Positions 15,248 through 22,082 of a stretch of 33,504 nucleotides of DNA are shown here, piece by piece; the stretch's first letter is position 1, and every line of letters begins with the position of its first letter. The stretch is from Ignavibacteriales bacterium (GTDB lineage: Bacteria; Bacteroidota; Ignavibacteria; UBA10030), in the NCBI GenBank assembly GCA_016193365.1, contig JACPSI010000097.1, positions 1 through 33,504 on the forward strand. The letters run 5' to 3'. The notes under the pieces are model-generated. The model was not told where the DNA came from. It saw nothing but the letters and a program-made list of their open reading frames with translations, and did no database searches. The position numbers were made by a program, and so were the translations under genes.

Positions 15248-16138
15248 ATGTTATTCGTCTTTAGTGTTATTGTTGCCGTCGTAGCGTTTCTGTTGTGGAG
15301 AACTGCGCAAAGTAAATTTCGGGAGGAACGCAATGCGTCGTATCGGGCAACGTCGAACATCAGCGGACTTGTTTCTTTGCTCTTTGCCGTTATCGCTTTT
15401 TCACAGACGTTTACAGTCGTTCCGGCGGGAAATGTCGGTGTCGTGGACTTCTTCGGCACGGTTTCAGAAAACACGCTCAAGGCCGGAATTAACATGGTGA
15501 ATCCGCTTGCGCGGGTGGTGAAGTTTTCCGTGAAAACCCAGGAGATCAAGGAAATCATGGAGGTGCCTTCCAAAGAAGGACTGACGGTATCGCTTGAAGT
15601 CAGCGCCCTTTTCCACTTGAACCCGGAAAAAGCTGCCGAGGTTTACAAATCTGTCGGTGAAAACTATGTGCAGATTTTGCTCGAACCCCAGTTCCGCTCT
15701 GTTTCGAGAGGCGTGACCGCGGGTTACGAAGCGAAAGCTTTGTACACATCGGAGCGTGAAATGCTGGCACAAATCATCTTGAAGGATCTGGAAAAGATCG
15801 TGGAAGCTCGCGGGATCACTATCGAAGCCACACCGTTACGTCGGGTTGGGCTGCCGCCGGGACTCACAGCATCAATCGAGGAAAAATTGCGCGCAGAGCA
15901 GGAAAGCCAACGAATGCAATTCGTGCTTACAAAAGAACGCCAGGAAGCGGATCGTAAACGGATTGAAGCACAGGGTATTTCCGATTTCCAGAACATTATT
16001 GCGCGAAGCCTGAGCCAGCAAGTTTTGACATGGAAGGGTGTTGAAGCGACCGAGAAACTTGCAAATTCTCAGAATACGAAAGTTATCGTAATTGGCGGCG
16101 GAAAGAACGGCCTTCCGCTGATACTGAACACGCAATAG
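15248..16138 (+). CDS. SPFH/prohibitin-family membrane protein
   Basis: A 296-aa protein anchored by an N-terminal hydrophobic helix (MLFVFSVIVAVVAFLLW) and a second one near residues 39-54 (GLVSLLFAVIAFSQTF). A complete SPFH (band 7) domain follows, starting VVPAGNVGVVDFFGTV and running to about residue 230, then a charged coiled-coil stretch (EEKLRAEQESQRMQFVLTKE). Prohibitin-like proteins oligomerise in the membrane and often control FtsH-type proteases or lipid microdomains. The ATG at 15248 is chosen, not an upstream in-frame start at 15023, because a perfect Shine-Dalgarno (GAAGGAGGTCC) sits just before it and the upstream part overlaps the divergent gene. No NfeD partner is adjacent. 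Confidence 0.92.
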   Translation: MLFVFSVIVAVVAFLLWRTAQSKFREERNASYRATSNISGLVSLLFAVIAFSQTFTVVPAGNVGVVDFFGTVSENTLKAGINMVNPLARVVKFSVKTQEIKEIMEVPSKEGLTVSLEVSALFHLNPEKAAEVYKSVGENYVQILLEPQFRSVSRGVTAGYEAKALYTSEREMLAQIILKDLEKIVEARGITIEATPLRRVGLPPGLTASIEEKLRAEQESQRMQFVLTKERQEADRKRIEAQGISDFQNIIARSLSQQVLTWKGVEATEKLANSQNTKVIVIGGGKNGLPLILNTQ

Positions 16139-16150
16139 GTCTACTTCGCG

Positions 16151-16170
16151 GGTCGGCGTTAACGCCGACC
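16151..16170. repeat. 20-bp perfect palindrome overlapping the symporter stop codon
   Basis: GGTCGGCGTTAACGCCGACC is a perfect 20-bp palindrome with TA flanks of the form found in short dispersed intergenic repeats. It lies between the stops of the convergent SPFH and symporter genes. On the minus strand it encodes the last symporter residues (VGRR) and the TAA stop. It may act as a bidirectional transcription stop or processing hairpin. Confidence 0.7.
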
Positions 16171-17562
16171 TACTATATTTATTTTACCAGCCGCCCAAAT
16201 CGCGACCGAAACAAGCAATCCCGGAAACATCGGCTCGACGCCGAGAAGATATTCCGGAACTCCGCCAACGGCATTGATATGTCCATACACAAGACTGGCC
16301 GTTGAGACCGCGCACCCACCGATCATTGCAACAAACGCGAATCGTGCTGAAATCCGCAGTCGGTTGAAATAGCTCGCCAACACCGGCACGAGTAATCCCG
16401 GTACGATGCAAGTGCCGATCGTATACCAAATCTTTACAACAGAAGGGACTGCGAGTGCAAGGACAATTGAGAAAACAGCCGAAATCAACAACCCTCGCTT
16501 TGTCCAGCGACGGACAATTTCCTGATCTTGCGATCTCGCCAACCGTCCGACGATATCCTTTCCAATCGTAATCGCTGAAATGAGCGTCAGACTGCTCAGC
16601 GTGGACATGATTGTCGCCAGAAGGCCGATGTAAAACAACCCCTTCGCCACCACCGGCAGTGTCAACTCCGCAAGTATCGGATAGGAAAACATCGGCTGCT
16701 GAAGGTTCGGAAGCGCCGCACGCGCATAGAGGCCGGTTATGCTGGTGAGGAAGTCAAAACAGAACCAGAAAAGAATCGAAACAAGAATTCCCTTTTGTGC
16801 AGTCGCTCCGTCTTTTGCCGCATAGCATCTTTGATGAAATGCCGGATCCACGAGTGTCCAAAGGGCAATGAAAAACCACACCGAAATAAATTGCCAACTA
16901 TTCCCTCCATGCCACGTCAGATGGAGCGCCGGCAGGTTCGATGACAGAAATTCCGACCCGCCAAACTTCGACCATGCAAACGGCAGCATGATCGCAAAGC
17001 CGAGAAACATCATGATGAATTCAAACGCATTCGCCCAGACGTCGGAGCGGAAGCCGCCGACGTACAAATAACAAACTGTTACGACGGTGGTCAACACAAC
17101 ACTTGAGACAAGGTTGATGCCAAAAATCAGCTGTACAAGTACCCCCAGCATAAGAACATAGGCGGCAGGCGTCACAAGGAAGAACGTTAGCACTCCACCC
17201 GCAATTGCCGTTCGACGGTCGTAGGATTGTTCAAGTTTGTCCGGAATGGTATAAAGATTCGTGGCCCTCACACGCTTCGCGAGAACAAGAGCAAAAACAA
17301 CGGCAAAAATGTAATAAGGCACTCCGAAGACAACCCAGTTGGAAATCCCGTAGTGGTACGAAAACTCTCCCACACCCAGAATCCCGCCGTACCACGTCGA
17401 CACCAGAGTGGCCACAAACATCGGCAACGTCAGGGTCCGTCCCGCAAGAAGGAATTCATCGGTGCTCGATTTTTCCTTTTTCGAAGCGCGAAATCCTATG
17501 AAAACGACGCTTGCAAAATACAGGATGATGAGAAGGGAATCGATGAGGCTGATTTCGACCAC
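16159..17562 (-). CDS. Sodium:solute symporter (SSS family), probable thiamine or thiamine-precursor transporter
   Basis: A 467-aa polytopic inner-membrane protein of the SSS family with about 12-13 hydrophobic segments. It has the N-terminal helix IDSLLIILYFASVVFIGF, the family stretch DEFLLAGRTLTLPMFVATLVSTWYG (residues about 35-59) and the NLYTIPDKLEQSYDRR loop. The substrate is inferred from context: the GTG start lies 4 bp after the stop of thiamine pyrophosphokinase, in a locus led by a TPP riboswitch and a TonB receptor. SSS-type thiamine transporters (ThiV) have been proposed from comparative genomics elsewhere, and other Bacteroidota use PnuT in this position. The 3' end is formed by a palindromic repeat. 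Confidence 0.88.
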   Translation of the reverse strand: MVEISLIDSLLIILYFASVVFIGFRASKKEKSSTDEFLLAGRTLTLPMFVATLVSTWYGGILGVGEFSYHYGISNWVVFGVPYYIFAVVFALVLAKRVRATNLYTIPDKLEQSYDRRTAIAGGVLTFFLVTPAAYVLMLGVLVQLIFGINLVSSVVLTTVVTVCYLYVGGFRSDVWANAFEFIMMFLGFAIMLPFAWSKFGGSEFLSSNLPALHLTWHGGNSWQFISVWFFIALWTLVDPAFHQRCYAAKDGATAQKGILVSILFWFCFDFLTSITGLYARAALPNLQQPMFSYPILAELTLPVVAKGLFYIGLLATIMSTLSSLTLISAITIGKDIVGRLARSQDQEIVRRWTKRGLLISAVFSIVLALAVPSVVKIWYTIGTCIVPGLLVPVLASYFNRLRISARFAFVAMIGGCAVSTASLVYGHINAVGGVPEYLLGVEPMFPGLLVSVAIWAAGKINIVGRR

Positions 17563-17566
17563 TCGA

Positions 17567-18238
17567 CTAGCCCGGCTTGTGTTTTGAGGTTCCCGATGTG
17601 AGCCTGTAGAGGAGCAAATCCCCCCTTCGAACCAAGATGGTCACCGGACTTGATTTGACGACATTGCTCGTGCTTTCACGCAGACCGAGTTTCAATGATT
17701 CATTCCTCAGCTCCCATTTGAGTCCTTTGGTGACAATGCCTTCGCACAGTGAAAGCGGAATGAGTGAGACGATTGTGCCGGCCGGCGCTTCGAACTCGTA
17801 CGAATGGCCAACGCCGACGAGTTCGGAATTGTCATCAATGAATGCGATCTTCGCTTTCCTGGAAAACTTTGCCAGTGCGCTCAGATTACCGATGGAGTGG
17901 TCCAACCGATGACCGGCCGCTCCAACGACGACGATTTCATGGAATCCTTTTCGCACAACCCAGGAAAGCGCTTTCTCAAGGTCTGTGCTGTTTTGATCGG
18001 CAATGCGCCTTGCGGGGACGCGGCTGAACTTTCTGAGTGTTGAAGCCTGGATCGAATCAAGGTCGCCGATAATGAGGTCGGGTTTCAGGCCAAACCGCGC
18101 TGCGGTGTTCGCGCCACCATCTGCGCAGATAAAAAAAGCTCCGTTCAACAATTTCGTTAATAAGCGTTTCGTTGGCGGACGTCCGTTCGCAAGAATGAGC
18201 GCTCTCTTTTTCACTTTTTGTGATTTTCCGTGATCCAA
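17567..18238 (-). CDS. thiN: Thiamine pyrophosphokinase
   Basis: Converts thiamine plus ATP to thiamine pyrophosphate, the last step of salvage. The 223-aa product contains the family motifs ALILANGRPP, FFICADGGANTAARFG, PDLIIGDLDSI, and DQNSTDLEKALSW. It also has GAAGHRLDHSIGNL in the catalytic region and the C-terminal thiamine-binding beta domain (EAPAGTIVSLIPLS, GLKWEL, SNVV). The longest frame starts at a TTG (18238). A GTG at 18214 (215 aa, starting VKKRALILANG) fits the family's usual N-terminus better and may be the true start. It follows the TonB receptor by 229 bp that contain two hairpins, and is tightly joined to the symporter. Confidence 0.93.
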   Translation of the reverse strand: MDHGKSQKVKKRALILANGRPPTKRLLTKLLNGAFFICADGGANTAARFGLKPDLIIGDLDSIQASTLRKFSRVPARRIADQNSTDLEKALSWVVRKGFHEIVVVGAAGHRLDHSIGNLSALAKFSRKAKIAFIDDNSELVGVGHSYEFEAPAGTIVSLIPLSLCEGIVTKGLKWELRNESLKLGLRESTSNVVKSSPVTILVRRGDLLLYRLTSGTSKHKPG

Positions 18239-18351
18239 AATATCAGGAGAATTCGTTGGGGCTGGAATTTTACGATATTGCGTATCAATACTTTGAGTTT
18301 GTTTCTGGTTTCAGATTTGCGGTTGGATAGTGTGCGCGGGTACAATAAAGA

Positions 18352-18422
18352 GGTCGCTGAGTTTTGGGAGGCGACCAACCCAGCGACCCGAAGCGGCCAC
18401 TCCGAATGCCCACGGAGCGGCC
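18352..18422 (-). terminator. Two intercistronic hairpins between the TonB receptor gene and thiN
   Basis: In the 229-bp gap, reading in the direction of transcription: a 10-bp stem with one G-U pair (18395-18422, GGCCGCTCCG with CGGAGTGGCC, loop of 8) and then an 8-bp stem GGTCGCTG/CAGCGACC (18352-18388) followed by TCTTTATT. The second could be a weak attenuating terminator that lowers thiN and symporter expression relative to the receptor; both could protect the upstream mRNA 3' end. The 86-codon frame across this gap has no ribosome site and looks non-coding. Confidence 0.45.
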
Positions 18423-18467
18423 TGTAAAAATCTACAATATTAGACGAACAGTTGCAAAAGTTGTTTC

Positions 18468-20738
18468 TCATAGCTGCATTGCCAGCCCGACGATGTAATT
18501 GCGTTCGGCCGCCGGAAAGAAAGCATTTGCTTCTCCGGACATTGAGTAAAAATTATTTATGATGTTCCTGACCTCCCCTCGGAGGGTCAATTTCACTCCG
18601 CCGGGAAATGTGAGTTGCCGTAGGATCTCAGCATTCAACACTGTATACGCATCGTTTTTGTTACTTTCATTTCGAAAGTTGTCTGTGTAAAAAGAGCCCA
18701 CGTACTTTCCTACAAGTGATATTGTCAGAGTCTCCCCCGAATATGTGAAACGAATATTTCCCATGACATCGGGAAAACCAGAAATGGCGTTGCCGTCGAG
18801 GACTTTCGTGATGACAAATGTGTTTCCAAGTGTGTCGGTCATGTAATCAAACGACCGGTGGCTGACAAATCGGTTTTGCGAAATCGTTGCGTTGCCAATG
18901 AAGGTGAGCGTTTCGTCGAGCTTGTACTCTCCCTCTATTTCAATCCCTGCATGGCGCGTCTTTTGAGCATTGCCGGTTACCGGCTGGCCGAAGATATCCA
19001 CCTGTCCGCTTTTCACAAGCTCATCGCTGAAATCCATGTAAAAGAAATTCACCTTGAATTGAGCCATTGATGACCTGAACCCTCCTCCAATTTCAATATC
19101 CAGGAGGCGTTCCGGACTCACAAGAGGTTGAGAGAAATCATACCTCACATTTCCGCCCGAGGTGTCGGCCTGAAATTGCGGAGTCGCGCCAAAGTAGCTA
19201 TCCTCCGCCGCATACAGATTTCTCAACCGCGGCTCGCGAGAGGTGTGAGCAAGGGAAACGTATGCGTTCCATTCTTTACTCATATTGTAATTCACCCCAA
19301 GTCGCGGATTCCAAAAATAGTACGGCACGCTAAACCCGTAGTTCAGATATTTTTCGTTCTGTATGCCGTACCTGTTGTACACAAACTGAAGGTCTGCCAT
19401 GAGGGTCGTTTTCGCGTCAATGCGGTACAGTTCGTGGCCATAGAGTGAGAAAATATCTTTCTCGCCGTTGTATTCATAAAAATGATAATCAGCATCAAAA
19501 TTCGGTGGCAACCCTTCGGCATACTGTATCTTTCCCCAATGAATCGACCTGTGCATACGCAGCTCCGCTCCAAGCGTCAAATCCCCGCCTCCGTGTTGAA
19601 TATTAACTCTCGGCAGCCAACCCCATTGCTTGTTGCCGACAAACCCACGTACGATCGCGTTGGAAGGGTTCTGGTTTGTCGGAAAACCGTATTCAGAACC
19701 AATTCTGAGTGTTGACGTGTCTGCCCAGGAGGCATCGTAATCGAAATAGCCCTCCCCGATGACAAGGAAAAGCGTGTTGTTGAGTTTTGTGCCCGGAGAT
19801 AAGCGCCATTCGTGCAATAACTCAAAGTGCGGCTGCGAAAACGACTCATGTTCTTGATGCCGTCGTGGGCCGGTCCAGACAAACGTGTTACCATCTGAAT
19901 AGCCCGTTAAGTTCTCACGTCGGAGCTTTTTGTCACCCATGGCTGATTTTGGCAATCCGTGGTAGATCAAACCGTCAGTAAACGGGCCGCCGAAGAAATG
20001 AACTCTCGTGGTGACGTTTTCATCGAACCGCACACCTCCGAGGAAATAGGAATTCATGTCGACCCAACCGCGCTCTCGGTACCCCTCAGTGCGAAGTTTC
20101 GCCAGTCTTCCATAGAACATATATTTTTCGCTTACAAGCCCCGAGTTGATTGTCGCGGCGAATTTCTTTGTCGACAGAGGAGCTGTCTGTCGATCGCCAT
20201 ATTCTTGAAATCCAAACGTCGATTCCAGCGTAATTGCGGGCTCCTGCGAAAAAGGATTCGCGATGAGGTTCACAGAGCCGCCGATTGCCGGCGGACCGTA
20301 AAAAGCGCTCCCGGCTCCGCGCTGTACTTGAATTCCCTGTGTGCTCGCGAGCAAATCCGGAAAATCCACCCAGTACACATTGTGGTCTTCGGGGTCGTTT
20401 TGCGGAACACCGTTGATCATCACTGACAACCTCCTCTGGTCAAACCCGCGAAGGTTGATGTAATTATATCCCATACCGTTTCCGTTTTCGGAATAAAACG
20501 TGATGGAAGGAAGCTCCGAAAGCACTACGGGTACATCCTGCACGGAGTAACGCTGCTGTAAATCCAGGCGCGTAAGATTTGTAAACGTCACAGGCGTAAG
20601 CCGTTCGAAAGCCTGAGTAGCCGTTACAATTACGGGTGATAAAGAATAAACTTTGGTGGTATCTTCCTGGGCAGTTGCATAGATGTGATACAACAACAGG
20701 GAAATAACAATATTGAGTGTTCGAATTTTAGATCTCAT
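18468..20738 (-). CDS. TonB-dependent outer-membrane receptor, probable thiamine uptake
   Basis: A 756-aa receptor with signal peptide (cleavage near IYATAQ), a TonB-box-like segment (VYSLSPVIVTATQ), a plug domain at about 30-150 (SELPSITFYSENGNG, NLRGFDQRRLSVMINGVPQN, VQRGAGSAFYGPPAIGGSV) and a 22-strand-type barrel to the C-terminus. Such receptors take up scarce ligands across the outer membrane with energy from TonB. No CarboxypepD_reg repeat is present, so it is not SusC-like. Substrate is inferred from the TPP riboswitch directly upstream and from thiN downstream, the arrangement known for thiamine outer-membrane receptors in Bacteroidota. The start is set by GAGGAGATGAGAAC before the ATG. 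Ligand could be thiamine or a phosphorylated or precursor form. Confidence 0.93.
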   Translation of the reverse strand: MRSKIRTLNIVISLLLYHIYATAQEDTTKVYSLSPVIVTATQAFERLTPVTFTNLTRLDLQQRYSVQDVPVVLSELPSITFYSENGNGMGYNYINLRGFDQRRLSVMINGVPQNDPEDHNVYWVDFPDLLASTQGIQVQRGAGSAFYGPPAIGGSVNLIANPFSQEPAITLESTFGFQEYGDRQTAPLSTKKFAATINSGLVSEKYMFYGRLAKLRTEGYRERGWVDMNSYFLGGVRFDENVTTRVHFFGGPFTDGLIYHGLPKSAMGDKKLRRENLTGYSDGNTFVWTGPRRHQEHESFSQPHFELLHEWRLSPGTKLNNTLFLVIGEGYFDYDASWADTSTLRIGSEYGFPTNQNPSNAIVRGFVGNKQWGWLPRVNIQHGGGDLTLGAELRMHRSIHWGKIQYAEGLPPNFDADYHFYEYNGEKDIFSLYGHELYRIDAKTTLMADLQFVYNRYGIQNEKYLNYGFSVPYYFWNPRLGVNYNMSKEWNAYVSLAHTSREPRLRNLYAAEDSYFGATPQFQADTSGGNVRYDFSQPLVSPERLLDIEIGGGFRSSMAQFKVNFFYMDFSDELVKSGQVDIFGQPVTGNAQKTRHAGIEIEGEYKLDETLTFIGNATISQNRFVSHRSFDYMTDTLGNTFVITKVLDGNAISGFPDVMGNIRFTYSGETLTISLVGKYVGSFYTDNFRNESNKNDAYTVLNAEILRQLTFPGGVKLTLRGEVRNIINNFYSMSGEANAFFPAAERNYIVGLAMQL

Positions 20739-20756
20739 GTTCTCATCTCCTCATAT

Positions 20757-20822
20757 GTAGGTCGACCAGGCCTGCCCGACTGATTCTATGCTCGATACGG
20801 TCAGGCGGGCTGGTCGACCTAC
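20757..20822. repeat. 66-bp inverted-repeat element in the thiamine leader
   Basis: GTAGGTCGACCAG (20757-20769) and CTGGTCGACCTAC (20810-20822) are perfect 13-bp inverted repeats; the interior adjacent bases (CCTGCCCGAC and GTCAGGCGGG) continue the symmetry imperfectly. The element sits between the riboswitch terminator and the receptor's ribosome binding site. Its ends (GTAGGTCG) resemble those of the palindrome at 16151-16170, so it is probably a dispersed repeat that inserted into the leader, not part of the switch. Confidence 0.65.
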
Positions 20823-20828
20823 AAGCAT

Positions 20829-20870
20829 AAAACAAGAAAGCCGCTTTCCGAAGAACACCCGGAAAACGGC
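20829..20870 (-). terminator. Intrinsic terminator of the TPP riboswitch expression platform
   Basis: On the minus strand GCCGTTTTCCG pairs with CGGAAAGCGGC (20840-20870, 11 bp with one G-U, 9-nt loop) and is followed by TTTCTTGTTTT. It lies 19 nt after the aptamer. Its 5' arm contains CCGTTTTCC, which is fully complementary to GGAAAACGG at the 3' edge of the aptamer, so the antiterminator and terminator are mutually exclusive. Confidence 0.88.
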
Positions 20871-20889
20871 TCGAAAGAAAATCCATTTC

Positions 20890-20988
20890 CCGTTTTCCTC
20901 CGCTGGCATAATCCAGATCAGGTTCGAGGGTTTGTTCTCAGCCCCGGTCCCGAGAGAAACATCGGGATCGGCGGGACACCCCTAACGG
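20890..20988 (-). ncRNA. TPP riboswitch aptamer (THI element)
   Basis: The minus strand reads with both conserved cores of the thiamine pyrophosphate aptamer: GGGGTGTCC and GGGGCTGAGA on the pyrimidine-binding side, then ACCTGATCTGGATTATGCC and AGCGGAGG on the pyrophosphate-binding side. P1 forms from CCGTT (20984-20988) and AACGG (20890-20894). Bound TPP should stabilise P1, free the terminator at 20829-20870 and stop transcription of the receptor and probably of thiN and the symporter. The long P3 arm is a GATCCCGATGTTTCTCTCGG-type hairpin. Confidence 0.95.
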
Positions 20989-21022
20989 AAAAACATAAAA
21001 CAAGATGTAAAAGAACTACCTA

Positions 21023-21051
21023 AATATACATCATCTGAAAGGGCTTGTCAA
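21023..21051 (-). promoter_or_regulatory. Consensus sigma70-like promoter of the thiamine operon
   Basis: Minus strand: TTGACA (21046-21051), 17 bp, TATATT (21023-21028). Predicted start is near 21016, about 28 nt upstream of the aptamer P1, giving a leader of roughly 278 nt before the receptor ATG. Confidence 0.75.
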
Positions 21052-21116: not shown

Positions 21117-22082
21117 TCATTGGTTCTCTAACTGCTCCTGAACTTTCTTGTATTCCCGCTCCCGCCTCCGGCACGATTCGATTTCTGCCAGATACTCACT
21201 GTCCGCTTTCAGCTCGTAGGCCTTATGCAGAGCGGCGACGGCTTCTTCAAACCGCGCGCTGAACTCGTATGCAACACCAAGGTTGTAAAACGCTTTATGG
21301 CGGCTCTCATGTCCGGCATATTTTTCTGTCGCGGATGTGAACAGCTCGATTGCCCGATCCCATTCGCGGATCTTTGCGTAGGAAACGCCCGACTCAAGCT
21401 CCGGCATCTCCGAATCCGTCAGCATTTTCACACGAACGCTCTCCCAGTGCGGCGCAATCCGGCTCACAAATTGCCTGACGATATTCCTGCGCGCGGAACG
21501 GAGCAAATCCTCGTCTTCGATGCGCGGGGGACGGCCATCGACCGCGCTCGTTTGCGCCAACGCATCATGCGTGATGTCCTTCGAAAAAATGAACCGGCCC
21601 GTGGTCAGATCCGTTATCCGAAAGTTGATGGTGACTCGTGCCTTGCCCTCGCGCGTGTGGCGTACATGCGTCTTGCCCTCCTTGTCTTTATACGGCTCGC
21701 CTTGCAAGACTTGTTCGTTATAGCGGTGGTCGGCCACCCGGGCAAAGATCAGAGCAGCCGCACCTATCAGACTGCCCAACTGTAACGCGGTTTTCTCGTC
21801 AATGAGCTCAGACATCGAAAGCCTGTATTCCCGTATGATCTTGTCGAGGTTTGAGCGGTCCAGGACTTCAAACGCGTTCGATTCGATCAGCTGCCCGATG
21901 AGGTCGTCCTCAACATCCCGCGCCGCTTCACCCGAGACCCTCCCGACGGCGACCTTTTTGAGCTTTCCCAGGTTTATTTCTGCCGGCCTCATCACCGGCA
22001 CGGTAATCATCGTCGTCCCGCATTGAACAAACAGGGAAAACAGGAGAAAAACGGATGTCAATTTGAAAACAGCTGCTTTCAT
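21117..22082 (-). CDS. CsgG-like lipoprotein with TPR-like C-terminus
   Basis: A 321-aa predicted lipoprotein: hydrophobic leader, lipobox-like FVQC, lipidated near Cys22. Residues about 35-200 follow the CsgG/penicillin-binding-protein-activator (LpoB-like) fold: LKKVAVGRVSG, VEDDLIGQLIESNAFEVLDR, LGSLIGAAALIFARVADHRY, ARVTINFRITDLTTGRFIFS. Residues about 225-305 hold two or three TPR-like helical pairs (AKIREWDRAIELFTSATEKY, KAFYNLGVAYEFSARFEEAV). The protein should sit at the outer membrane facing the periplasm. A pore function as in curli secretion is not implied, because curli genes are absent and the TPR tail is extra. SD CGGAGG precedes the ATG; 18 bp separate it from the deacetylase stop, so it is last in a four-gene operon. 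Confidence 0.78.
   Translation of the reverse strand: MKAAVFKLTSVFLLFSLFVQCGTTMITVPVMRPAEINLGKLKKVAVGRVSGEAARDVEDDLIGQLIESNAFEVLDRSNLDKIIREYRLSMSELIDEKTALQLGSLIGAAALIFARVADHRYNEQVLQGEPYKDKEGKTHVRHTREGKARVTINFRITDLTTGRFIFSKDITHDALAQTSAVDGRPPRIEDEDLLRSARRNIVRQFVSRIAPHWESVRVKMLTDSEMPELESGVSYAKIREWDRAIELFTSATEKYAGHESRHKAFYNLGVAYEFSARFEEAVAALHKAYELKADSEYLAEIESCRRREREYKKVQEQLENQ

Follow-up and report, generated by a model that had tools for sequence, protein, structure and literature searches.

A predicted thiamine-import locus with an SSS-family symporter in the position of PnuT in an Ignavibacteriales bacterium

The inner-membrane carrier PnuT works by facilitated diffusion. In Bacteroides it is found together with OMthi and Tnr3 under the control of thiamine pyrophosphate (TPP) riboswitches (PMC5613172), and its substrate is thiamine according to work cited in that paper. 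In Caldithrix abyssi (Cabys_3975-3977) a TPP riboswitch precedes a BT2390-like TonB receptor by 163 nt, in the company of a sodium-solute symporter and a thiamin pyrophosphokinase (PMC5317091). Proteins of the sodium:solute symporter (SSS) family named ThiV have been predicted, or supported by uptake data, as carriers of hydroxymethylpyrimidine (HMP) or thiamine (PMC2211319, PMC6593275, PMC11452348). Here we describe a thiamine locus on contig JACPSI010000097.1 of an Ignavibacteriales bacterium, a stretch of 33,504 nucleotides referred to below as the window; in the draft genome (3.16 Mb in 167 contigs, 97% complete) it is numbered C44. The locus is very probably the thiamine-import operon of a thiamine auxotroph, in which an SSS symporter would act as the inner-membrane thiamine carrier.

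On the minus strand the order is a promoter-like site, a TPP aptamer, a terminator, a TonB receptor, thiN and the SSS symporter. The parts from the aptamer to the symporter, the terminator of the leader being listed further below, are:

20878-20993, minus strand: TPP riboswitch aptamer (RF00059, full length, model positions 1-105; 64.7 bits against a gathering score of 54.3, E 1e-10)
18468-20738, minus strand: TonB-dependent outer-membrane receptor with Plug and TonB barrel Pfam domains, predicted to take thiamine; homologues lie behind TPP aptamers
18351-18389, minus strand: terminator-like hairpin in the gap between receptor and thiN (z-score -2.9, U-rich tail)
17567-18238, minus strand: thiN, thiamine pyrophosphokinase (TIGR01378, thiamine diphosphokinase, 162 bits against a cut-off of 76.4; both domains, PF04263 and PF04265; GDLDS motif)
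16159-17562, minus strand: SSS-family symporter with a GTG start (TC 2.A.21; PF00474, 106 bits), predicted inner-membrane thiamine importer from its clade, linkage, AlphaFold model and LeuT-fold matches

A preliminary description of the window, made from its letters, had named the aptamer, the receptor, thiN and an SSS symporter 4 bp behind thiN, and all four are borne out by the RF00059, Pfam and TIGR01378 matches and by the sequence, four bases separating the TAG of thiN from the GTG of the symporter. The locus resembles the OMthi-PnuT-Tnr3 set of Bacteroides, often a single operon, in combining a TPP riboswitch, a TonB receptor, a thiamine pyrophosphokinase and one inner-membrane carrier. 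It differs in the nature of this carrier, which is PnuT (PF04973) in Bacteroides, whereas here it matches PF00474 and not PF04973.

The strongest single argument for the role of the symporter comes from relatives in which PnuT stands in its slot. In two genomes of family f3 (G115 and G043), which belongs to the window's order, a TPP aptamer, a homologous receptor and a homologous thiN are followed directly by PnuT, and in G062, G076 and G096, other sampled members of this family, the symporter occupies that slot. Because PnuT replaces the symporter in an otherwise shared set of riboswitch, receptor and thiN, the two proteins would do the same job. The earlier proposal that an SSS symporter takes the PnuT position is thereby upheld.

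The same relation is seen on a wider scale. Among 149 genomes of the class, 106 hold only the symporter, 23 only ThiC and 10 only PnuT, i.e. exactly one of the three systems is present in 139/149. Seven genomes hold none of them, six of these forming one family of metagenome-assembled genomes (MAGs) that are 68-94% complete and the seventh being 71% complete. In a sample of 396 genomes of the phylum, the symporter was found in 114, ThiC in 138 and both in none. Three families mix their states, namely f3 and f10 (symporter or PnuT) and f14 (symporter or ThiC), and the independent support for the exclusion comes from these. As a separate observation, the MAGs of family f8 (G004, G015, G025, G035, G045 and G054) lack the symporter, ThiC, PnuT and thiN; ThiE copies are present in four of the six (G004, G025, G045 and G054) and TPP riboswitches in G004, G015 and G054, which points to an unusual salvage route or to incomplete assemblies.

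The symporter is also linked to thiN well beyond the window. Conservation of this pair across Ignavibacteria had been put forward as a check of its role, and in 79 of the 109 carrier genomes of the class the symporter has thiN as its neighbour on the same strand. A scan of named genomes, from several phyla, gave at least 568 symporter relatives; among the best 80, thiN is adjacent in 64 and a TPP aptamer lies within the fetched stretch in 46. The pair is also seen in KSB1, Neomarinimicrobiota, Calditrichota (Calditrichia) and Armatimonadota, and in an Elusimicrobia genome (L242) thiN is located about 1 kb from the symporter. Outside the class and inside the phylum, 34 sampled genomes are carriers. 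Twenty further stretches, 15 from outside the class and 5 from within it, have thiN adjacent in 16 cases. The nearest named relative of the symporter (84-85% identity) belongs to an Ignavibacteriales MAG, L169. Ignavibacteriaceae, Melioribacteraceae and Kryptonia are among the named carriers, which bears out the Ignavibacteria of the preliminary description. A Calditrichia relative (L236) shows the gene order of Caldithrix abyssi and has a member of this symporter clade.

Some arrangements depart from this pattern. The symporter stands directly behind a TonB receptor, without thiN, in G136 (L041), L195, L238 and L240, and a TPP aptamer is seen too in the first three of these. G136 is rated 100% complete and has no thiN match in its genome, so that it must make TPP in another way. 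One carrier stretch, L211 (PABJ01000020.1), is labelled Ectothiorhodospiraceae; its symporter coordinates match those of the class genome G114, and the public label looks wrong. Two apparent fusions, thiN-symporter in L197 and receptor-thiN in L202, were rejected, the open frames being joined through runs of N.

The gene content of the genome agrees with a need for import. Bacteroides thetaiotaomicron also holds a full biosynthesis operon (PMC5613172), whereas profile searches of the window's genome gave no match to ThiC, ThiE or PnuT, and the ThiD family (PF08543) gave weak, partial matches of the ribokinase type. The locus is devoid of thiamine biosynthesis genes, as had been stated from its sequence, and the lack of thiC and thiE, which had been proposed for verification, is confirmed at the level of the genome. 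The genome contains one thiN, and the aptamer is its sole TPP riboswitch as well as the sole Rfam match in the window. Since ThiC, ThiE and PnuT gave no match and a single TPP riboswitch is present, the bacterium should depend on imported thiamine. In the absence of ThiE neither HMP nor thiazole would be usable, and therefore the imported compound should be thiamine itself. Elsewhere in the class, ThiE is found without ThiC alongside the symporter in family f19 (Kryptonia-like) and in G121, where precursor salvage is possible besides thiamine uptake.

The receptor lies behind the TPP riboswitch together with thiamine genes, as do receptors of the OMthi type, and its homologues follow a TPP aptamer in relatives, the PnuT-bearing ones included. 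For thiN, the listed start is TTG at 18238, and GTG at 18214 is equally plausible.

The symporter itself reached the cut-off of no NCBIfam equivalog. The best score was obtained with the sodium/pantothenate symporter PanF (TIGR02119), also an SSS protein, at 85 bits, far under the 328 bits needed. The genome holds 14 PF00474 stretches. In the phylogeny, a branch with 100/100 support separates 48 family members from PanF, from the genome's other SSS proteins and from plasmid SSS proteins. According to the preliminary description, firm clustering with a non-thiamine group, such as proline or sugar symporters, and a lack of linkage to thiN in relatives would have spoken against a thiamine role. 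Neither holds, the symporter falling in none of the proline, sugar and pantothenate groups and being linked to thiN as described above. The first sequence outside the clade (L134) is encoded on the C. difficile plasmid NZ_CP149720.1 (135799-137193), with no thiamine genes alongside. Plasmid SSS proteins were also tried as stand-ins for ThiV and rejected, with at most about 29% identity and no thiamine gene in the annotated neighbourhoods that were opened. A search of viral contigs gave no relative.

The AlphaFold model of the symporter has a predicted local distance difference test score (pLDDT) of 93 and a predicted template modelling score (pTM) of 0.91, and its helices break near 57-60, 130-132 and 239, as in carriers of the LeuT fold. 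The top matches among solved folds were CHT1 (TM-score 0.85), SGLT and SiaT (0.79), and the closest solved relatives by sequence are choline transporters, at about 18% identity. Residue conservation was counted over 54 family sequences, and CHT1 numbering was mapped through a profile alignment. Like CHT1 and sfCHT (PMC11589582, PMC13220886), the symporter has a Na2 site and part of an aromatic cage. The Na2 side chains S346 and S347 of CHT1 (PMC11589582) correspond to S320 and T321, S320 being kept in 53/54 sequences and position 321 being S or T in 53/54. Sodium coupling is suggested by this conservation of Na2-site residues. The Na3 site is partly kept, with N or D at 178 and a variable position 323. 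Of the choline cage, W62, Y91 and W406 have their counterparts in W57, Y83 and W379, positions at which aromatic residues are retained. Unlike in CHT1 and sfCHT, the positions of the cage residues W141 and W254 are taken by T131 and D239, position 239 being D or E in 52/54. As a structural guess, an acidic residue beside an aromatic cage may suit a cationic substrate such as thiamine.

ThiV is one of the closest described systems. Like the present protein, it belongs to the SSS family, is controlled by a TPP riboswitch and is related to PanF, and it has a substrate related to vitamin B1, as is predicted here; linkage of an SSS gene to thiamine genes and a TPP riboswitch, by which ThiV is recognised, is found here as well. 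However, ThiV of SAR11 serves to take up HMP in an organism whose pathway is otherwise intact. ThiV/SSSP proteins carry an aspartate in a conserved helix 3, at SiaT position 139 (PMC11452348). No acidic residue lies at positions 119-148 of the symporter, or before 141 in the family, the SiaT numbering being approximate. Y83/Y84 and F242-H243 are conserved in the family and may be equivalent to SiaT positions 78 and 254, which bear the helix 2 tyrosine and the helix 6 phenylalanine followed by histidine or a polar residue in ThiV.

The claim that the symporter is the inner-membrane thiamine transporter, made in the preliminary description, is supported by its clade, its linkage to thiN, the exclusion with ThiC and PnuT and the replacement by PnuT, and other roles have to be weighed against these. 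A ThiV-type carrier of HMP (or thiazole) rather than of intact thiamine has a precedent in SAR11, whose SSS protein ThiV is encoded behind a TPP riboswitch and in which uptake of HMP has been measured (PMC11452348), and the genomes of f19 and G121, with ThiE and no ThiC, would be suited to it. It is nevertheless improbable in this genome, in which the precursors could not be joined without ThiE, the gene partner thiN acts on thiamine, and the thiamine carrier PnuT replaces the symporter in situ; HMP, once entertained as an alternative substrate, is thus unlikely, and thiamine is the best of the options. We attach still less probability to an importer of thiamine phosphates. On general knowledge, phosphorylated vitamers could pass the TonB receptor, but they would be of little use to ThiN, which phosphorylates free thiamine, and PnuT, which takes the place of the symporter, carries thiamine according to work cited in PMC5613172. 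That an unrelated SSS transporter, for pantothenate or choline for example, came to lie behind thiN by chance is hardly credible. SSS genes are indeed common, as the count of PF00474 stretches in this genome illustrates, and the best solved matches are choline transporters. Against this stand the linkage over several phyla, the exclusion with ThiC and PnuT, the separate clade, and the loss of two tryptophans of the CHT1 cage at T131 and D239.

The mode of energization is a different question. Proton-coupled transport, or a facilitator, would leave no sodium-driven route for thiamine, and the partly kept Na3 site is compatible with it. We consider it rather unlikely, since the equivalents of CHT1 S346/S347 are conserved and the closest solved relatives are sodium-coupled.

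Several observations weigh against a thiamine-import operon as simple as the one proposed. Two genomes of the class hold the symporter with ThiC and one holds it with PnuT. The Fisher p-values of the exclusion (9e-23 and 6e-27) were computed ignoring shared ancestry. The symporter does not adjoin thiN in families f6, f10, f17, f20, f21 and f22; in f6, f9, f15, f17 and f20 the cassette is split, its parts still being in the genome. At 97% completeness and 167 contigs, gene absences in the window's genome are not absolute. Finally, the hairpin between receptor and thiN is conserved in L169, the nearest relative, where its T tail is better. Many other relatives leave almost no gap between receptor and thiN. 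Because this terminator-like hairpin separates the two genes in the window's genus, thiN and the symporter may be only partly controlled by the riboswitch or may have a promoter of their own, and the idea of a single operon is weakened.

Upstream of the receptor, the leader contains the following elements:

21023-21051, minus strand: promoter-like site TTGACA-17-TATATT (11/12 consensus matches)
20890-20898, minus strand: anti-terminator strand GGAAAACGG, overlapping the 3' side of aptamer stem P1 (perfect complement of 20869-20861)
20838-20872, minus strand: intrinsic riboswitch terminator, then a T-rich tract (15-pair stem; folds far better than shuffled sequence, z-score -4.3)
20756-20823, minus strand: palindromic leader element of about 70 bp, between the terminator and the receptor start (fold z-score -6.6)

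The terminator with its anti-terminator, the palindrome and the hairpin before thiN had not been mentioned in the preliminary description. In the terminator the 5' arm reads CCGTTTTCC (20869-20861), to which the 9-nt strand GGAAAACGG is perfectly complementary. This strand can pair either within stem P1 or with the terminator arm, and the terminator and anti-terminator folds are mutually exclusive. Perfect anti-terminator pairing of at least 7 nt occurs in 18 of 37 leaders from relatives, where shuffling would give 3.7. Several of the 37 share a terminator of the form GCCGTTTTCC...GGAAAACGGC. Judged from sequence and fold, the expression platform should be able to switch. At low TPP the anti-terminator (20898-20890 with 20869-20861) would form and transcription would read through. 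The TonB receptor would then carry thiamine across the outer membrane and the SSS symporter, driven by the sodium gradient, across the inner membrane, and ThiN would convert it directly to TPP, thereby trapping it. Ample TPP would bind the aptamer, stem P1 would hold the AACGG strand, the terminator would form and the genes would be off.

The palindrome has a second copy in the same genome (C24:10147-10216, 84%). It resembles a small mobile element or repeat and may not belong to the switch. The promoter-like site, previously called a consensus promoter, is the best match in the region, but six such sites were found against 4.4 expected by chance, and the consensus may not be that of the host sigma factor. 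The locus is cleanly bounded by a CsgG/TPR gene that ends upstream at 21117 and by a convergent gene for an SPFH-domain protein that ends at 16138. A PADLOC scan of one neighbour gene gave no match.

The locus would be a form of the Bacteroidota thiamine uptake cassette in which an SSS symporter fills the position of PnuT. The same four-part arrangement was known before from a single report, on the one genome of Caldithrix abyssi, in which transport was ascribed to the receptor and neither the symporter nor exclusion nor replacement by PnuT was analysed (PMC5317091). The cassette with the SSS symporter is far more widespread than this report suggests. We give an even chance to a broader proposal. 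In it, a distinct SSS clade, separate from ThiV and present in many genomes of Bacteroidota and of several other phyla, would serve as a dedicated sodium:thiamine symporter. This symporter would have swapped repeatedly with the facilitator PnuT or with de novo synthesis, and would bind the thiamine cation in an aromatic cage like that of choline transporters in which one tryptophan is now acidic (D239). If the predicted role is right, the inner-membrane step of vitamin B1 uptake would be named for most Ignavibacteria and for members of several uncultured phyla that are unable to make the vitamin. The motifs VSTWYGGILGVGEFSY and WTLVDPxFHQR would serve as a sequence marker of thiamine uptake in metagenomes, for proteins otherwise annotated just as 'sodium:solute symporter'. 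The exchange of active symport for facilitated diffusion and trapping within one family, behind the same receptor and kinase, would then constitute a natural experiment.

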